Source of the DNA: Alphaproteobacteria bacterium
GTDB lineage: Bacteria > Pseudomonadota > Alphaproteobacteria > Sphingomonadales > Sphingomonadaceae
Direction of reading: 5' to 3'
Length of the DNA stretch: 10,270 nucleotides
Assembly (NCBI GenBank): GCA_016650315.1
Contig: JAENVZ010000209.1
Location: forward strand, 1-10,270
Shown here: positions 1,532 to 9,093 of the stretch, piece by piece
How positions within the stretch are numbered: position 1 is the first letter of the stretch
Layout: each line of letters starts with the position of its first letter
Position numbers and translations under genes: made by a program
The notes under the pieces: model-generated
Databases searched by the model: none
Told to the model about the DNA's origin: nothing
The model's input: the letters and a program-made list of their open reading frames with translations, nothing else

Positions 1532-2416
1532 TTATGAAACAGTCAGTATTCTGGCCTGCGTGGCGACCAGTTCCGTCAACCAGTCATTGAACAGGCTGAC
1601 CCGAGCCAGATTACGTACATCCTGATGAATTGCGATCCAAAAAGCGCGACGAAGCGTGAAATCGGGCAACACACGCTGTAATTTCTCATCCTGCCCGCCG
1701 ATGAAATCCGGCAATATCGCCAGCCCGGCTCCGGCCTGACACATGCGCTGTTGCGCGTTGATGCTGGAACTGCGCAAGCATGCTTCCACCCCGGGAAGCA
1801 ATTCAGACAGATAGTCGAGTTCCGGTGCGTATATCTGATCGGGAATATAACCGATAATCCGGTGCGCACTAAGTGAATCGCGGCTCGTGACCCCGCCGGC
1901 GGCTTCCAGATAGTCGAGCGATCCATACAAACCCAAACTATATTCAGTCAGTCTGCGCGTCAGAAGTGGTCCCTTGCGTGGTCGGGCGAGCAGAATTGCA
2001 ATGTCGGTTTCCCGCTTGCCGGGGCTCAAAAAACCGCTGCTAGCCGCCAGATCAACGGTGATTGCCGGGTATTTCGTGGCAAATTCATGCAAATGACGGG
2101 CGATGACCCATGTTCCGAAACCTTCCGATGCACTGATACGCAAAATGCCCGAGGGCCCACCTTTGCCGCCACTCCCCTCACCAATAGCGCTGACCGACTG
2201 CTCCATCTCTTCGGCACGTATGAGCAGCGCCCTGCCCGCCGCCGTCAGCTTTTGTCCATCCCGGTCCTGTTCAAAGAGCACTTGGCCAATATCTTTTTCT
2301 AGCCGCCTGATCCGCCGGGACACCGTAGTGGGATCAGCGCGCAGCCCCGGCGCGGCGCGGCCGATCTGTCCGGCGCGCGCAACAGACAGGAAAAAACGCA
2401 GATCATCCCAGTTCAT
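1532..2416 (-). CDS. LysR-family transcriptional regulator
   Basis: A 294-residue LysR-type regulator of normal family length. The winged HTH occupies about residues 1-62. It opens with MNWDDLRFFLSVARAG, and its recognition region PTTVSRRIRRLE (29-40) is typical of the group that starts MNWDDLR. A linker helix (about 62-85) leads into a periplasmic-binding-like effector domain (about 90-290). A Gly-rich insert GEGSGGKGGPSG (79-90) sits at the hinge. The effector is not predictable from sequence. The gene is divergent from the acylating aldehyde dehydrogenase, the classic arrangement in which a LysR protein controls both itself and the facing gene. Its start codon is close to a nested inverted repeat, suggesting autoregulation, and no clear Shine-Dalgarno sequence is visible. 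Hand-counted rows of 47% and 58% GC are below those in the downstream valine genes. Confidence 0.93.
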   Translation of the reverse strand: MNWDDLRFFLSVARAGQIGRAAPGLRADPTTVSRRIRRLEKDIGQVLFEQDRDGQKLTAAGRALLIRAEEMEQSVSAIGEGSGGKGGPSGILRISASEGFGTWVIARHLHEFATKYPAITVDLAASSGFLSPGKRETDIAILLARPRKGPLLTRRLTEYSLGLYGSLDYLEAAGGVTSRDSLSAHRIIGYIPDQIYAPELDYLSELLPGVEACLRSSSINAQQRMCQAGAGLAILPDFIGGQDEKLQRVLPDFTLRRAFWIAIHQDVRNLARVSLFNDWLTELVATQARILTVS

Positions 2417-2634: not shown

Positions 2635-4062
2635 ATGGTTCAGCACGCAGTAGTTTTACCTATTGAGAAAAATCCGGTCGTTGCCGAAATTGCGGAACTT
2701 GTTGCCCGCTCACGTGCAGCGCAGGCACAGATCGCCGATTATACGCAGGAACAGGTCGATGAACTGATCCGCGCCATGGTGTGGGCGGTCGCGCGTGAGG
2801 ATGTTGCGAAAAAAATCGCACAGCATACCGTCGATGAAACCCAGCTTGGCAATTATGACGGCAAGTTTCTGAAAATTTTCCGGAAAACCCGTGCCACTTT
2901 ATACGATATCATCGATGACAAATCCGTAGGCGTCATTGAGGAAGATCTAGCGCGTAACCTGGTCAAGATAGCCAAGCCGATAGGCGTGATCGGTGCGCTT
3001 TCTCCATCCACGAACCCCGAGGCAACGCCCGTCATCAAGGCGATATCGGCGGTAAAAGGCCGCAATTCCATTATTGTTGCACCGCATCCGCGAGCGAAAC
3101 TGACCAACAAACTGATATGCGACCTGATGCGCGACGCCATTGTGCAAATGGGTGGCCCCGCCGATCTGGTGCTCAGCATCGACACGCCTTCAGTTGAAAA
3201 AACCAACGAATTGATGCGTCAGTGTGATCGCGTACTGGCAACGGGCGGTGGTGCAATGGTGACGGCCGCGTATTCGAGCGGCACACCTGCCTTGGGCGTT
3301 GGCGTCGGCAATGCCGTGATTACGGTCGATGACACGGCCAACCTTGACGATGCCGCCGAAAAGATTCGCATTTCCAAAACACTCGATCTTGCAGCGTCCT
3401 GTTCGTCCGACAACAGCGTGGTTCTGCTTGCCGGCATTTACGATGAAATGCTGCAAAAGCTGCAGGCGCAGGGCGGCTATGTCGTTAACGCTGAAGAAAA
3501 GATCAAGCTTCAGAACACCATCTGGGTCGATGATCATCTCAACACTGCAATCGTCGCCCAGCCCGCCGAAAAAATTGCGGGCATGGCGGGCATCGAGCTG
3601 CCAGAAGGCAAGAGCTTTTTCATTGTTCCCGAAACGGGCTTTGGACCAGATTATCCATTTTCCGGCGAAAAACTGTCCGTAGTCATGGCGCTGTATCGCG
3701 CGAAGGACATCGATGAGGCCATTTCCCTGACCAACAATATTCAGGCCTATCAGGGCCAGGGGCACAGCTGCGGCATCTATTCCCAGAGCGATGAGAATAT
3801 CATGAAGCTCGCCTTTGCCACCAAGACATCGCGGGTCATGGTCAATCAGCCGCAGTCGGCATCGAACAGCGGCAATTTATGGAACGGCATGCGGCAAACC
3901 TTCTCGTTGGGTTGTGGTAGTTGGGGCGGCAATGGTACGAACAACAACATTACCTGGCGCGACCTGATCAATGAAACCTGGGTTTCAAAACCACTAGCGA
4001 AAGCCAAAACGCTTCCAAGCGACGACGTTCTGTTCGGTTCGGTGATTGACAAGATAAAATAG
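2635..4062 (+). CDS. CoA-acylating aldehyde dehydrogenase (EutE/AdhE-N/SauS-like)
   Basis: A 475-residue NAD(P)-dependent aldehyde dehydrogenase expected to turn an aldehyde plus CoA into an acyl-CoA. Landmarks: SPSTNPEAT (123-131, cofactor side), TGGGAMV (203-209), the catalytic thiol Cys256 in SCSSDNS, FSGEKLS (342-348) and LGCGSWGGN (425-433). The last two are hallmarks of the acylating AdhE/EutE branch (AdhE has HEKLSP and LGCGSWGGN). It closely resembles what is annotated as sulfoacetaldehyde dehydrogenase (acylating). It is not MmsA-like: the methylmalonate-semialdehyde dehydrogenase signature NCGQRC is absent and it is shorter than MmsA. Yet it stands where mmsA usually stands, 95 bp upstream of the valine genes, so methylmalonate semialdehyde is a plausible substrate. 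It is probably controlled by the divergent LysR protein. A weak ACCAG/CTGGT hairpin follows the stop without a T-tract, so read-through into the ACAD gene is likely. Family is secure; substrate is not. Confidence 0.9.
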   Translation: MVQHAVVLPIEKNPVVAEIAELVARSRAAQAQIADYTQEQVDELIRAMVWAVAREDVAKKIAQHTVDETQLGNYDGKFLKIFRKTRATLYDIIDDKSVGVIEEDLARNLVKIAKPIGVIGALSPSTNPEATPVIKAISAVKGRNSIIVAPHPRAKLTNKLICDLMRDAIVQMGGPADLVLSIDTPSVEKTNELMRQCDRVLATGGGAMVTAAYSSGTPALGVGVGNAVITVDDTANLDDAAEKIRISKTLDLAASCSSDNSVVLLAGIYDEMLQKLQAQGGYVVNAEEKIKLQNTIWVDDHLNTAIVAQPAEKIAGMAGIELPEGKSFFIVPETGFGPDYPFSGEKLSVVMALYRAKDIDEAISLTNNIQAYQGQGHSCGIYSQSDENIMKLAFATKTSRVMVNQPQSASNSGNLWNGMRQTFSLGCGSWGGNGTNNNITWRDLINETWVSKPLAKAKTLPSDDVLFGSVIDKIK

Positions 4063-4157: not shown

Positions 4158-5297
4158 ATGCAGTTCGACCTTACCGAGGACCAGCGCGCTATACAGGATA
4201 TGGCGTGCAAGTTCACTGCCGACGCCATCACGCCCTATGCGGCAGAGTGGGATGAAAAACATATTTTCCCCCGCGACACCATTCGCGCGGCGGCGGAACT
4301 TGGCTTTGGCGGCATTTATGTGTCGGAGGAAGCTGGCGGCATTGGCCTCGGACGGCTGGAATCGGCCATCATCATGGAAGCGATGGCTTATGGCTGCCCT
4401 TCCACCAGCGCATTCATTTCCATCCACAATATGACTGCCTGGATGATCGACCGCTTCGGCAGCCAAGCAGTGAAGGACAAATATCTCCCCGCTCTGGTTC
4501 CCATGGAAAAGATGGGGAGCTATTGCCTGACCGAAGCAGGCGCGGGATCGGACGCTGCTGCGCTCAAGACAAAGGCGGTCAGGGATGGCGACGATTATGT
4601 CGTTACCGGCTCCAAGCAGTTTATTTCAGGTGGTGGCGAGAATGAAGTCTATGTCGTCATGGTCCGCACCGGCGAGGATGGACCCAAGGGCATAAGCTGC
4701 CTTGTCATCGAAAAGGATATGCCCGGCGTCAGCTTCGGCGCCCAGGAAAAGAAACTGGGCTGGCATTCGCAGCCGACGGCGCAGGTGAATTTTGACGGCG
4801 TTCGCGTTCCTGCGGAAAATCTTGTCGGCGCGGAAGGTGACGGTTTCAAGATCGCCATGGTGGGTCTTGATGGCGGGCGCCTCAACATTGGCGCCTGTTC
4901 GCTGGGCGGCGCACAACGATGCCTGGACGAAGCCATTAATTATACCAAGGACCGCAAGCAGTTCGGTCAGGCCATAGCCGAGTTTCAGGCAACGCAGTTC
5001 ACGCTTGCCGACATGGAAACCGAGCTTCAGGCTGCTCGCAGCCTGCTCTACACGGCCGCTGTGAAGGTCACCGAGAACGCTCCCGACAAAACCCGTTTCG
5101 CTGCCATGGCCAAGCGCTTTGCCACCGATACCGGCTCATCCGTCGTCGATCGCGCGTTACAGCTTCATGGCGGCTATGGCTATTTGCAGGACTATCCGAT
5201 CGAACGCTTCTGGCGCGACCTGCGCGTCCATTCAATCCTTGAGGGCACCAATCAGGTGATGCGGATGATCGTTGCAAGGGACATGCTGCGCCAGTGA
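4158..5297 (+). CDS. Isobutyryl-CoA dehydrogenase-like acyl-CoA dehydrogenase
   Basis: A 379-residue FAD flavoenzyme, full length for the family. It is expected to oxidise isobutyryl-CoA to methacrylyl-CoA in valine breakdown, passing electrons to ETF in the cytoplasm. Order of parts: N-terminal helical domain (about 1-120), the FAD/substrate signature CLTEAGAGSD (123-132), the middle beta domain, and the C-terminal helical domain. The last carries the signature LHGGYGYL (336-343) and the putative catalytic base Glu362 in SILEGTNQVM. Within the family, LHGGYGYLQDYPIERFWRD followed by LEGTNQVMR at the C-terminus is most like ACAD8 (isobutyryl-CoA dehydrogenase). 2-Methylbutyryl- or other short-chain acyl-CoA activity cannot be excluded. 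The next gene starts at a GTG overlapping this stop (GTGA), so the two are translationally coupled. The neighbours (hydrolase, hydratase, MmsB) support valine. Confidence 0.94.
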   Translation: MQFDLTEDQRAIQDMACKFTADAITPYAAEWDEKHIFPRDTIRAAAELGFGGIYVSEEAGGIGLGRLESAIIMEAMAYGCPSTSAFISIHNMTAWMIDRFGSQAVKDKYLPALVPMEKMGSYCLTEAGAGSDAAALKTKAVRDGDDYVVTGSKQFISGGGENEVYVVMVRTGEDGPKGISCLVIEKDMPGVSFGAQEKKLGWHSQPTAQVNFDGVRVPAENLVGAEGDGFKIAMVGLDGGRLNIGACSLGGAQRCLDEAINYTKDRKQFGQAIAEFQATQFTLADMETELQAARSLLYTAAVKVTENAPDKTRFAAMAKRFATDTGSSVVDRALQLHGGYGYLQDYPIERFWRDLRVHSILEGTNQVMRMIVARDMLRQ

Positions 5298-5953
5298 CCG
5301 ATGAAGTCCTGATTTTACGCGACGGCACTATAGGCCGGATACGCCTGAACCGGCCAAAAGCCATCCATGCGCTGACGCCCGGCGGACGGATCGATGGCGC
5401 GGATTGCAAGGCCCTTGGCATTGCCACGCATTATATGCCCTCTGAAGTCATTGAGGGCGTGAAGGCGAAAATTATTGCCGATCCTGCAGCAGTCGAATCT
5501 CTGCTGGATGCAGCAAATGCAGCCCCGCCTCTATCGAAAATTGAAGGGCAGCGTGCCGACATAGACCGGCTTTTTGCTTCCGACCGATATGAAGACATTC
5601 TTGTGGCGCTCAAGGCCGATGGGAGTGAATGGGCAGAGAAGCAACTTTCGGTCCTTGCTACGAAATCGCCACAGACGATCAAGGTGGCGTTGCGCCAGTT
5701 GACCGAAGGCGAGGCAATGAACGACTTCGCGGACAATATGCGCATGGAATATCGTCTCGCCTGCCATGCCATCCGCCGCCCGGATTTCGTTGAAGGCGTT
5801 CGCGCGGTGATTGTCGACATGGATAATACGCCCAATTGGGTCCCTTCGACGCCGGAAGCTGTTACCGATGATCTTGTTGATTCTCTCTTTTCCGCGCTGC
5901 CTGCGGGCAAGGAGTGCTCACCTTTACCCGAGACGCCAGCATTGGGAGTTTGA
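5294..5953 (+). CDS. 3-Hydroxyisobutyryl-CoA hydrolase with internal deletion, probably inactive
   Basis: The intact enzyme, about 350 residues with a crotonase fold, hydrolyses 3-hydroxyisobutyryl-CoA to free 3-hydroxyisobutyrate. This version has only 219. Residues 1-28 (MTDEVLILRDG..LNRPKAIHALT) are the family N-terminus. From about residue 30 (GGRIDGADCKALG) the sequence is already the C-terminal half, and it continues normally to FVEGVRAVIVDMDNTPNWVP and the end. Roughly 130-140 residues are missing. They include both glycine-rich oxyanion-hole segments (the GFCAGGD-like and MGGGVG-like motifs) and the acidic catalytic residues. The frame is kept, so the gene is still read through and couples ACAD (4-base GTGA overlap) to the hydratase 3 bases downstream. 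The start is the overlapping GTG; the ATG at 5301 is out of frame. It is either a recent in-frame deletion (a functional pseudogene), a retained non-catalytic fragment, or an assembly error. Confidence 0.85.
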   Translation: MTDEVLILRDGTIGRIRLNRPKAIHALTPGGRIDGADCKALGIATHYMPSEVIEGVKAKIIADPAAVESLLDAANAAPPLSKIEGQRADIDRLFASDRYEDILVALKADGSEWAEKQLSVLATKSPQTIKVALRQLTEGEAMNDFADNMRMEYRLACHAIRRPDFVEGVRAVIVDMDNTPNWVPSTPEAVTDDLVDSLFSALPAGKECSPLPETPALGV

Positions 5954-5956
5954 ACC

Positions 5957-6733
5957 ATGGCCTATGAAACCATCCTTGTCGAAAAACGCGACGCAGTTAC
6001 ACTGATCACCCTCAATCGTCCTCAGGCGTTGAATGCACTTAATAGCCAGGTGCTGGCCGATCTGATCACTGCTTTTGCTGCCTATGATGCAGATGAAAGC
6101 CAGCGTTGCGCTGTGATCACTGGCAGCGAAAAGGCCTTTGCCGCCGGTGCCGACATCAAGGAGATGCAGGACAAGGGCTTTGCCGACATGTATCGCACAG
6201 ACTGGTTCGCCGATTGGACCAGCAAAGTGGTTGCTACCCGAAAACCGTGGATTGCGGCAGTCGCGGGCTATGCGCTTGGTGGTGGATGCGAACTGGCAAT
6301 GATGGCGGATTTCATCATCGCCGCCGATACGGCCAAATTCGGACAGCCTGAAATCAAGTTGGGCGTTGCGCCCGGCATGGGCGGATCGCAGCGGCTTACC
6401 CGCGCGGTTGGCAAGGCGAAGGCCATGGAAATGTGCCTGACAGGCCGGATAATGGGAGCCGAAGAAGCCGAGCGTGCCAACCTGGTTGCCAGGATCGTCC
6501 CCGCGGCGGATCTGCTCGAAGATGCGCTCAAAACTGCTACGATCATTGCGGCCATGCCACCACTCGCCGCCATGGTGAACAAGGAAATGGTCAACCTCGC
6601 CTTCGAAACCGGCTTGCTTCAGGGCATCTACACCGAACGCCGCCTGTTTCAGGGGCTGACCGCCACGCAAGACAAGATGGAAGGCATGGCTGCCTTCGTC
6701 GAAAAGCGTGCGGGCGTGTGGAAGGGGCAGTAA
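5957..6733 (+). CDS. Enoyl-CoA hydratase (methacrylyl-CoA hydratase in this context)
   Basis: A 258-residue crotonase-fold protein, full length and very similar in layout to short-chain enoyl-CoA hydratase (ECHS1 type). It would hydrate methacrylyl-CoA to 3-hydroxyisobutyryl-CoA, and probably crotonyl-CoA-like substrates as well. Key features: AAGADIKEM (62-70) forms one side of the oxyanion hole, and [16 protein letters not shown] (104-119) carries the first catalytic glutamate, Glu112. [15 protein letters not shown] (129-143) carries the second, Glu132. Both correspond to the Glu144/Glu164 pair of rat ECHS1, so activity is expected. It starts 3 bases after the deleted hydrolase, with GGGAG upstream as a modest ribosome binding site. 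Having both glutamates argues against it having taken over the missing hydrolase role, because it looks like a normal hydratase. Confidence 0.94.
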
Positions 6734-6783: not shown

Positions 6784-7662
6784 ATGAAAATTGCATTCAT
6801 TGGCCTTGGCAACATGGGCGGCGGCATGGCGGCAAATCTGGTAAAAGCCGAACATCAAGTTGTCGCCTTCGATCTTTCCGAAGCCGCCCTTACCCATGCG
6901 GAAGAGGCAGGATGCAGCCGAGCAACATCTGCCGCTGCCGCCGTAGCGGGTGCCGATGCTGTTGTCTCCATGCTACCTGCGGGCAAGCATGTCGACATGG
7001 TGTATGGCAATGAAGTTTTCGGAAGCGCTGCACCAGGCGCGTTGTTTCTCGACTGTTCAACCATTGATGTCGCCACGGCGCGCAAGGTGATTGCGGCGGC
7101 CGCCAGTAAGGGCTTTGAAATGGTCGATGCGCCGGTTTCAGGCGGTATTGCTGCGGCGGCAGGCGGCACGCTGACCTTCATGGTCGGTGGCACCGACAGC
7201 GCCTTCGAACGCGCCCGGCCCATCCTTTCCGCCATGGGGAAAGCGGTCATCCATGCCGGCAGCGCGGGCAATGGGCAGGCGGCCAAGATATGCAACAACA
7301 TGCTATTGGGCGCGACCATGGTTGCAACCTGTGAAGCCTTTGCCATGGCCGAAAAACTTGGTCTCGATCCGCAGACTTTCTATGATATCAGCAGCGTTTC
7401 TTCGGGCCAGAGCTGGTCGATGACCAGCTATTGCCCCCTGCCGGGCGTTGGCCCGCAAAGCCCTGCCGATAATGGCTATCAGGGCGGGTTCGCTACCGCC
7501 TTGATGCTGAAAGACCTCAAACTGGCAACGCAGGCTGCCCAAACCGTGGACGCCAGCGTGCCGATGGGAAATGCAGCCGAAGCGCTCTATCAAATACTGG
7601 CGTCGGCGGGTGATGGCGGTCGTGATTTTTCGGCCATTATCGAGATGCTACGCGGGAAATAG
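6784..7662 (+). CDS. mmsB: 3-Hydroxyisobutyrate dehydrogenase
   Basis: A 292-residue NAD-dependent beta-hydroxyacid dehydrogenase, normal length, expected to oxidise 3-hydroxyisobutyrate to methylmalonate semialdehyde. The Rossmann dinucleotide motif GLGNMG (7-12) is followed by Asp30 at the end of beta-2, favouring NAD. DAPVSGG (115-121) is the substrate-binding signature. GNGQAAKICNNMLLG (162-176) carries the catalytic lysine Lys168. FATALMLKDLKLA near 239-251 is typical of MmsB/HIBADH as opposed to tartronate-semialdehyde reductase. It is the last gene of the operon, 50 bp after the hydratase, with AAAGAGG (6767-6773) about 10 bases before the ATG. Its stop codon lies inside an inverted repeat shared with the convergent regulator gene. 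Its substrate normally comes from the hydrolase that is truncated two genes upstream. Confidence 0.95.
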   Translation: MKIAFIGLGNMGGGMAANLVKAEHQVVAFDLSEAALTHAEEAGCSRATSAAAAVAGADAVVSMLPAGKHVDMVYGNEVFGSAAPGALFLDCSTIDVATARKVIAAAASKGFEMVDAPVSGGIAAAAGGTLTFMVGGTDSAFERARPILSAMGKAVIHAGSAGNGQAAKICNNMLLGATMVATCEAFAMAEKLGLDPQTFYDISSVSSGQSWSMTSYCPLPGVGPQSPADNGYQGGFATALMLKDLKLATQAAQTVDASVPMGNAAEALYQILASAGDGGRDFSAIIEMLRGK

Positions 7663-7681
7663 CCCCGGCAGCTATTTGATT
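7657..7681. terminator. Candidate bidirectional terminator covering both convergent stop codons
   Basis: AAATAGC (7657-7663) and GCTATTT (7671-7677) form a perfect 7-bp stem around a 7-base loop, CCCGGCA. On the plus strand it is followed by GATTTTAT, a broken T-run. The mmsB stop (TAG, 7660-7662) and the regulator stop (TAG read on the minus strand, 7672-7674) each sit in one arm. The stem is AU-rich and not very stable, so efficiency may be modest, particularly on the minus strand, where no T-run follows. Confidence 0.5.
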
Positions 7682-9093
7682 TTATAGGGTAGAATTTCCC
7701 GCACATCGGGATCGACAGACAGGCTGTGATCGACAGGTGGGAAAGCCCGTTGATCGCAATTCATGCGCGGGCAGATGCGGCAACTTATGCCGATCAGCGT
7801 GGCTGCCTGTTCATTGCTGATGTCCAGTTGATCGGCATAGACGAAGCTTCTGGCATGTTCGATTTCGCACCCCAGCGCCACGGCATAACGGCGCGGCGCG
7901 CGGGCGTAGCTGCCCGACGGTTTCACCAATCCTTTGGCCATGCAGACATAGCGGGCGTTATCGGGGGTTTGCGCCAATTGCACGCCGATCCGATCAGGAA
8001 TGGCCACCGCCTCATGCACAACCCATAATGGGCAGGCTCCACCAAAACGCGCAAATTCCAGGCGTGTGGCCGAATGGCGCTTTGTAATATTTCCGGCCAT
8101 ATCGACCCGGCAAAAGAAAAAGGGCGTGCCGCATTCCCCCGGCCGCTGAAGCGTCGATAGCCGGTGGCAGGCCTGTTCGAAGCTAACTGAAAAATGCTGG
8201 CATAATCGGTCGATGTCGTGGCGCAGGCTCCGCGCCGTTCGGCGGAAATGGTCGTAGGGCATCAACAGCGCCCCGGCCGCGTAATTGGCAAGGCCAATGG
8301 ATAAAAGCTGCCGCGCCTCATCCGAACGCAATTCCGCTTCGTCCCTAACACCCGCGATCACATCCGCCAGTTCCAGCGCGGCCAGTTGATGCGCAAGTGC
8401 GAACCGGCGGCTGTCGGGCGGCAGCGTGCTGGATAACGTCAATGTTTTCGTTCGGCGATCATACCGGCGCAACAGTCGCGCACTTTCCTCACGCGCCGTC
8501 AATTCCACGACAACCTGATGCACATTCTTGAGTCGCGCCAACAGGGCATCGTCATCGATTTGATCCCGGCCCCATAAATCACGAGCCATCCGTTCAGCTT
8601 CCCGGTCAATGGGATCGACATAATTCCCGGCCAGATGGAACCAGTCACGGACCTCCTCCCACGGTAGTCGGCCGTCCAGTCCCATATTGCTTGATATGAC
8701 GTCATCAACGAATTGCAGACGGTTGAGGGCGCCGCGATAGGCCTGGTGCAACGCCGTCAGCCGGTCTGCTATGGCAGGTTGCAATTCGACAAGGCGATCC
8801 AACGCGCCGTCGGATATTTCCATACCCCGAAACAGCGGGTCAGTCAGCGCATCACGAACACCTGACGTACGGCGCTGTTCATCGTCCACCTCAAAATCCG
8901 CGCCGTTCAGGGGAAAGGTTCGCCCAATGGTCTGACGGATTGCAGACGTCATTGGTCGGTCGTCATGTTCCAATTGGCTGAGATAGCTGTTGGAAATGCC
9001 CATTCGTGCAGCCATAACCGATTGAGAGAGACCCAACCGCAACCGCAAGGCACGAAGCCGTTCCCCGGCATAAAGACGCTGCTTGCCCACCAC
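7672..9093 (-). CDS. Short-chain fatty-acyl transcriptional regulator (ScfR/PrpR/RamB type)
   Basis: A 473-residue regulator with three parts. An XRE-type helix-turn-helix spans about residues 10-60 (LSQSVMAARMGISNSYLSQLE). A middle domain related to the IrrE/ImmA fold has its metalloprotease site reduced to AHQLAALE (234-241), lacking the HExxH motif. A C-terminal DUF2083-like domain holds four cysteines (Cys409, Cys438, Cys441, Cys446; CRICPRMNCDQRAFPP). Relatives (mycobacterial PrpR, corynebacterial RamB) control methylcitrate, glyoxylate-shunt and propionate genes and respond to short-chain acyl-CoA; PrpR also carries a 4Fe-4S cluster bound by C-terminal cysteines. A role in sensing propionyl-CoA or isobutyryl-CoA produced by the convergent valine operon is a reasonable inference. 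The GTG start at 9091-9093 has AAGGA upstream and lies in the foot of a strong hairpin. An alternative start is not evident. Confidence 0.92.
   Translation of the reverse strand: MVGKQRLYAGERLRALRLRLGLSQSVMAARMGISNSYLSQLEHDDRPMTSAIRQTIGRTFPLNGADFEVDDEQRRTSGVRDALTDPLFRGMEISDGALDRLVELQPAIADRLTALHQAYRGALNRLQFVDDVISSNMGLDGRLPWEEVRDWFHLAGNYVDPIDREAERMARDLWGRDQIDDDALLARLKNVHQVVVELTAREESARLLRRYDRRTKTLTLSSTLPPDSRRFALAHQLAALELADVIAGVRDEAELRSDEARQLLSIGLANYAAGALLMPYDHFRRTARSLRHDIDRLCQHFSVSFEQACHRLSTLQRPGECGTPFFFCRVDMAGNITKRHSATRLEFARFGGACPLWVVHEAVAIPDRIGVQLAQTPDNARYVCMAKGLVKPSGSYARAPRRYAVALGCEIEHARSFVYADQLDISNEQAATLIGISCRICPRMNCDQRAFPPVDHSLSVDPDVREILPYKIK

Follow-up and report, generated by a model that had tools for sequence, protein, structure and literature searches.

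The window, by which we mean the whole stretch of 10,270 nucleotides that was analysed, carries a valine operon in which the gene for 3-hydroxyisobutyryl-CoA hydrolase (HIBCH, the product of vutE) is found as a remnant between the genes for an acyl-CoA dehydrogenase (ACAD) and an enoyl-CoA hydratase (ECH), followed by a 3-hydroxyisobutyrate dehydrogenase (HIBADH) and preceded by a SauS-like aldehyde dehydrogenase (Table 1). The divergent gene was named a LysR-type regulator from its sequence, and no NCBIfam match to it was found at E ≤ 1e-40. A further regulator at 7672–9093 on the minus strand, convergent with the end of the operon, resembles the acetate regulator RamB (NF038139, 425 of 700 bits).

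Table 1. Genes of the operon and parts of the cut hydrolase gene, in coordinates of the window.
Feature	Position	Strand	Basis
LysR-type regulator, divergent from operon	1532..2416	-	named from reading the sequence; 79% identity with the gene next to mmsA in G001
SauS-like CoA-acylating aldehyde dehydrogenase, in the mmsA slot of G001	2635..4062	+	NF047625, PDB relatives
ACAD, intact; probably isobutyryl-CoA dehydrogenase, from operon position	4158..5297	+	Pfam, NCBIfam
Remnant HIBCH (vutE) without catalytic core	5294..5953	+	219 aa; Pfam/NCBIfam matches and alignment to P0002
Kept N-terminal part, 29 codons (family residues 1-29, first beta hairpin)	5294..5380	+	alignment
Deletion junction; 408 bp (136 codons) gone relative to P0002	5380..5381	+	alignment
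Kept C-terminal part (family residues 166-356, helical module)	5381..5950	+	Pfam, AlphaFold2, Foldseek
ECH, intact; probably VutD-like, from position	5957..6733	+	Pfam, NCBIfam
HIBADH, intact	6784..7662	+	TIGR01692, 408.4 bits (cut-off 291.6)

In a genome of the same genus (G001) the gene order is astB, LysR-type gene (minus strand), mmsA, ACAD, HIBCH, ECH and HIBADH. Identities to the window fall into two groups when this genome is compared with a second relative (G018). ACAD (89% in G001, 82% in G018), HIBADH (85 and 75%) and the LysR-type gene (79 and 49%) are nearer to G001, while the HIBCH remnant (63 and 68%) and the SauS-like gene (no match in G001, 86% in G018) are nearer to G018, and it is possible from these values that the operon is a mosaic. 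Between the ECH genes of G001 and G018 the distance is unusually small (dN 0.072). At six loci (L042–L047) ECH is not between HIBCH and HIBADH but on the opposite strand, at a distance of about 5 kb.

The cut hydrolase gene and what it has lost

The remnant starts with a GTG that overlaps the stop codon of ACAD (GTGA), and the hydratase starts at 5957, directly after the remnant ORF ends at 5953, so that the frame, the ACAD overlap and the spacing to the hydratase are all kept, as a preliminary description of this DNA had stated. The nearest protein among the matches listed, from Rhizorhapis sp. SPR117 (P0002, 356 aa), is 82% identical over 87% of the query and 90% identical over the N-terminal 29 residues. 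In the alignment, residues 1–29 of the remnant (ending KAIHALTP) are followed by GGRIDGADC, which corresponds to residue 166 onward of P0002, and residues 30–165 are absent. The internal gap relative to the protein of the same-genus genome is also 136 residues, which gives an exact value to the 130–140 residues estimated before. In both G001 and G018 the two halves of the remnant match a single open frame in the right order, the matched stretches lying 384 bases apart, and the match of the remnant is therefore not by chance. The DNA at the break point reads GCG CTG ACG CCC GGC GGA CGG. Alignment with full-length orthologues thus bears out an in-frame, collinear loss of the catalytic core and places the break at 5380/5381, within the interval 5369–5386 given in the preliminary description, although the join does not directly follow HALT as supposed there, since the CCC proline codon (residue 29) belongs to the left side.

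The missing part (P0002 residues 30–165) holds the motifs RGFCAGGD, MGGGVG, MPET (with E136) and FPDV (with D144), each of which is invariant or at least 90% conserved at its positions in an alignment of 53 of the 119 full-length relatives among the matches listed, and which align with the solved HIBCH structures 3bpt and 4hdt. By comparison with the human enzyme, E136 and D144 are taken to be the catalytic acids, and the CAGGD (62–66) and MGGGVG (111–116) loops presumably form the oxyanion hole; both of these motifs lie inside the missing part. The remnant does not reach the cut-off of the NCBIfam model NF004127 (148 against 274 bits), which the intact P0002 passes with 388.3 bits, and it lacks the catalytic acids and the oxyanion-hole loops. 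It does match Pfam PF16113 (ECH_2) with 153.3 bits (cut-off 27.2), confined to profile positions 154–335 of 335, and thus keeps the C-terminal helical module, in a valine-operon context with ACAD, hydratase and HIBADH. Annotation by domain model alone would hence still suggest a hydrolase, since ECH_2 is passed at 153 bits.

Structure prediction with AlphaFold2 gave block means of 37, 37 and 32 for residues 1–30 of the remnant, confident helices (75–93) for residues 31–160 and a mixed tail (44–88) after residue 160, compared with 81, 89 and 66 for residues 1–30 of the intact protein, which has its own weak spots near 131–140 and 301–320. In the predicted model the N-terminal hairpin of the remnant is unanchored. 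Five Foldseek matches were obtained at E ≤ 0.001, namely 4hdt, 3bpt, the mitoribosome chain 9evt_f and 4j2u (twice), all of them HIBCH-like long crotonases, with 9evt_f being mS47 of the plant mitoribosome. The product would thus be left with an orphaned hairpin at its N-terminus and the helical module of the C-terminal part, without the CoA-thioester active site, which would make hydrolysis of 3-hydroxyisobutyryl-CoA impossible for it. Judged by its sequence, the 219-aa protein is almost certainly a dead enzyme as a hydrolase.

This short form appears to be confined to the window. A protein search with the remnant returned 5184 proteins at E ≤ 1e-20, and among the best 120 of these it is the only short one, the other 119 having 347–367 aa; the case considered in the preliminary description, that all relatives carry the same short gene, does not apply among these matches. 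The gene of the same-genus genome is full-length. HIBCH matches were present in 38 of the 40 relatives' genomes searched (the source draft, G000, counted; G023 and G030 had none), and in the 37 besides G000 the matched open frames have at least 279 codons. Within the family, a match at E ≤ 1e-40 is present in 375 of 397 genomes, with the remnant counted and lengths compared for the matches listed.

A second full-length HIBCH, as a search of the genome had been proposed to reveal, was not found in the source draft (90.3% complete, 324 contigs), nor was a stray or close copy of the missing middle part. Other matches to P0002 in this draft reach only 23–33% identity and were rejected as compensating paralogues; a candidate for the missing part at C146:9099-9452 was likewise rejected (31% identity, running off the contig end). 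Given the completeness of 90.3%, an unlinked copy of HIBCH may have been missed.

A SauS-like dehydrogenase in the mmsA position

The gene at 2635–4062 scores 510.6 bits on NF047625 (SauS), below the cut-off of 600, and the model of methylmalonate-semialdehyde dehydrogenase (MMSDH; TIGR01722, cut-off 448.5) is absent from the 25 families that it matches at E ≤ 0.001. From these matches it is an AdhE/SucD/SauS-type CoA-acylating dehydrogenase and not an MMSDH. A search of the source draft with TIGR01722 gave no place on the window contig (C209) and no MMSDH over the cut-off elsewhere in the draft (best 305.9 of 448.5 bits).

SauS-like genes were found at E ≤ 1e-60 in 26 of 397 genomes of the family, G000 counted, and at 25 of 27 places ACAD lies within their 1.5-kb flanks; ACAD is not seen beside one member of the G218 pair (L201, L218) or in G386, whose downstream flank examined was shorter. 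In the set of 80 named loci the gene stands upstream of ACAD in five (L049, L070, L073, L103, L108). At L206 (G294, 540 contigs) a SauS-like gene beside ACAD occurs in a genome with no HIBCH match at E ≤ 1e-40. An MMSDH over the cut-off is encoded in only three of the 26 SauS-like genomes (G018, G087, G272), compared with 24 of 26 comparison genomes that were picked by hand as having a HIBCH match and no SauS-like gene (Fisher P 3.6e-9, a value that overstates the contrast because the genomes are related and the set hand-picked). The two comparison genomes without MMSDH (G009, G015) imply that mmsA can be absent without a SauS-like gene, which counts against a replacement. Methylmalonyl-CoA mutase (TIGR00641) is found in 22 of the 26 SauS-like genomes and in 21 of the 22 more complete ones; it is lacking in G018, where mmsA is kept, and in three drafts with a completeness of 67–86%.

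Enzymes of the SauS type acylate semialdehydes and do not decarboxylate them, and malonate semialdehyde has a structural analogue in sulfoacetaldehyde, which makes methylmalonyl-CoA the likely, predicted product. We give even odds to a non-orthologous replacement, by which in these sphingomonad operons mmsA/bauC has been displaced by a SauS/SucD/AdhE-type enzyme that would convert methylmalonate semialdehyde to methylmalonyl-CoA without loss of CO2, feeding the mutase and bypassing propionyl-CoA carboxylase, the operon of the window having additionally lost the hydrolase step. If the predicted reaction is true, the end of valine catabolism would have been solved chemically in a second way. The literature searched yielded no valine operon with a SauS-type enzyme in place of MMSDH. 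The replacement does not explain the deletion in HIBCH, since 24 of the 25 other SauS-like genomes have a HIBCH match at E ≤ 1e-40.

Origin of the deletion and competing explanations

The preliminary description proposed recombination between GCGCTGACG repeats, and relatives do not bear this out: across 84 relatives the word occurs in the left zone in 17, in the right zone in 3 and on both sides in 1. A crossover of GCGCTGACG with a right-hand partner ending in GGCGG was also discarded, as it would have given HALT-GGRID without the proline, while CCC is kept after GCGCTGACG in the window; the kept proline codon means that the break lies after it. An ALT stretch at both ends, said to be typical of intact relatives, is present in 32 of 84, which speaks for the general idea of repeats. 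The longest exact word common to the two break-point zones has 7–10 nt in 30 of the 84 relatives and 4–6 nt in the other 54 (84 of 87 loci were counted, L221, L223 and L225 being left out as they are on the other strand), whereas random zone pairs (30/36 nt, GC 0.62) share a word of at least 7 nt in 58 of 1000 cases. The family overall therefore has more repeat at the two zones than expected by chance, owing to the ALT motifs, which lends the idea of a repeat in general some support, but the 14 top-listed, nearer relatives share words of 4–6 nt only, and we claim no specific repeat. At the matching places the P0002 protein reads HALTP-AMC and LATT-GGRID. A single internal deletion of 408 bp, a multiple of three, would have joined ancestral codon 29 to codon 166, most likely through slippage or end joining guided by very short homology (a few bases), with the joint reading ACGCCCGGCGGACGG; an overlap of CCG/CCGG, shared by the codons CCC-G on the left and (A)CC-GG on the right, would probably have been sufficient.

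The age of the event was approached through changes at conserved sites, counted with 58 outgroup proteins for each gene. At sites conserved to at least 80%, the kept part of HIBCH has six changes found only in the window and three found only in SPR117 (binomial P 0.51); at sites conserved to at least 90% the window alone has three changes (A to E, K to M, W to C) and the sister has one, too few for significance. The same count gave 4:9 (sister P0244) or 6:5 (P0246) for ACAD and 3:7 (P0122) or 5:5 (P0123) for ECH, and the difference between HIBCH (6:3) and ACAD (4:9, P0244) is not significant (Fisher P 0.19). The dN to G018 is 0.186 for the remnant and 0.243, 0.217 and 0.214 for the intact genes of G001, G252 and G066; dN/dS was not used because dS exceeds 1 in most pairs. 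By these counts the kept part is without significant decay, and together with the intact frame and overlaps this suggests that the event is recent, or not real. The deletion looks like an ordinary, recent one-off loss or a rare assembly error.

As a control on the quality of the draft, 41 of the 324 contigs of G000 (281 kb, window included) were compared with 1.08 Mb of stretches from G001, which gave 112 non-overlapping reciprocal best ORF pairs, 88 of them with both members complete and 71 that align over 60 aa or more at 50% identity or better; the 17 complete pairs below this limit were dropped before counting, and shadow ORFs may remain. The HIBCH remnant is the only internal deletion of at least 20 aa in the 71 pairs, the next largest being 14 aa, and no internal loss in the G001 partner exceeds 11 aa. 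The sampled part of the draft thus does not generally lose internal segments. Besides HIBCH, the G000 ORF is shorter than 0.8 of its partner at one end in three of the pairs, which may reflect start choice, shadow ORFs or real truncation. At three places in G000 (C2 (L173) 1032–2079, C12 (L183) 2662–3592 and C32 (L252) 10006–10588) two ORFs match one G001 ORF, possibly as frameshifts or shadow ORFs.

We consider it probable (about 0.75) that the window holds a recent null allele of HIBCH produced by a single in-frame 408-bp deletion at short homology; the deletion in the assembly and the loss of the motifs are observed, as are the absence of another short form among the matches listed and of a paralogue in the draft, whereas its reality in the organism, its recent date, its null effect in the cell and its mode of origin are inferred. 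Several points weigh on the other side. The allele rests on one contig from one source, in a draft of 324 contigs, the lack of decay would agree as well with an allele that does not exist in the organism or has not become fixed, and to lose the clearance of toxic thioesters while the upstream ACAD and hydratase remain intact should be counter-selected; moreover, an unlinked HIBCH could be missing from a draft that is about 90% complete. The first three of these would equally be expected if the junction were an artefact of assembly, amplification or strain mixture, the organism having a full-length gene and the contig being chimeric or carrying a minority-strain junction. We regard this as rather unlikely: the junction keeps both order and frame and falls within a single gene, no copy of the missing part turned up in the rest of the G000 draft, and the 70 other orthologue pairs are without an internal deletion above 14 aa. 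A k-mer assembler would not by itself bridge words as short as 4–10 nt. Since in relatives the two zones share words of just this length, some read should have carried the join, and the assembler is hardly its inventor.

Two further readings accept the short gene as real. HIBCH homologues with a non-hydrolase role are known in mitochondrial ribosomes, and the 219-aa product might have been kept by selection for a new role of that kind, with which the open frame, the kept overlaps, the lack of significant decay, the confidently predicted helices of residues 31–160 and the Foldseek matches to 4hdt, 3bpt and 9evt_f would agree; yet none of the 119 other homologues listed is short, the N-terminal segment is predicted to be unanchored, and the sites conserved to at least 90% tend, if not significantly, towards more changes in the window than in the sister (3 against 1), so that we find this reading extremely improbable. 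Highly unlikely, too, is a rerouted pathway in which the SauS-like enzyme in the mmsA slot has made HIBCH dispensable and the deletion neutral or adaptive, an idea that is compatible with a recent null allele. In its favour, G000 has no MMSDH over the cut-off and carries the SauS-like gene in its place, and G294 (90% complete) combines a SauS-like gene with the lack of a HIBCH match. On the other hand, the other 24 SauS-like genomes do have such a match, with HIBCH full-length and a few kilobases from the SauS-like gene in G018, G066 and G134, for example; the two changes concern different steps, and HIBADH still needs free 3-hydroxyisobutyrate. The suggestion in the preliminary description that the route has changed thus receives at most indirect help from the mmsA replacement, which is also found beside full-length HIBCH.

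Consequence for valine catabolism and relation to known systems

From what is established of valine catabolism, 3-hydroxyisobutyryl-CoA would continue to be formed by ACAD and hydratase but would not be released without HIBCH. With frame and gene overlaps kept, translation of the downstream genes should be undisturbed. If the null allele is fixed, valine carbon should stop at 3-hydroxyisobutyryl-CoA/methacrylyl-CoA. The deletion would be a natural and clean null mutation in a catabolic step that detoxifies and, if real and fixed, a natural test of bacterial life with intact upstream steps and no HIBCH. The harm expected from the loss in the preliminary description agrees with the vutE insertion mutant of S. 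fredii, which did not grow on valine, nor in the presence of 0.1 mM acrylate or methacrylate (PMC4029986).

The gene at 2635–4062 matches the families and chains of SauS (NF047625) and of the acylating succinate-semialdehyde/AdhE-type dehydrogenases (8cei, 6tqh), but differs from SauS in staying below the NF047625 cut-off of 600 and in its place in a valine operon. The valine operon of Novosphingobium comprises seven genes: bauC, vutD, vutE, vutF, vutG and two small ORFs (PMC4029986). Genes of successive valine-oxidation steps are clustered there as in the window, whereas the window has a SauS-like gene upstream of ACAD, the position of mmsA in G001, and a cut vutE. With the HIBCH/VutE enzymes (NF004127/PRK05617; PF16113) of Novosphingobium and S. 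fredii (PMC4029986), the remnant shares both kept parts, the operon neighbours and the helical module; the known enzyme, however, has the oxyanion-hole loops and catalytic acids, and the remnant is without these 136 residues.
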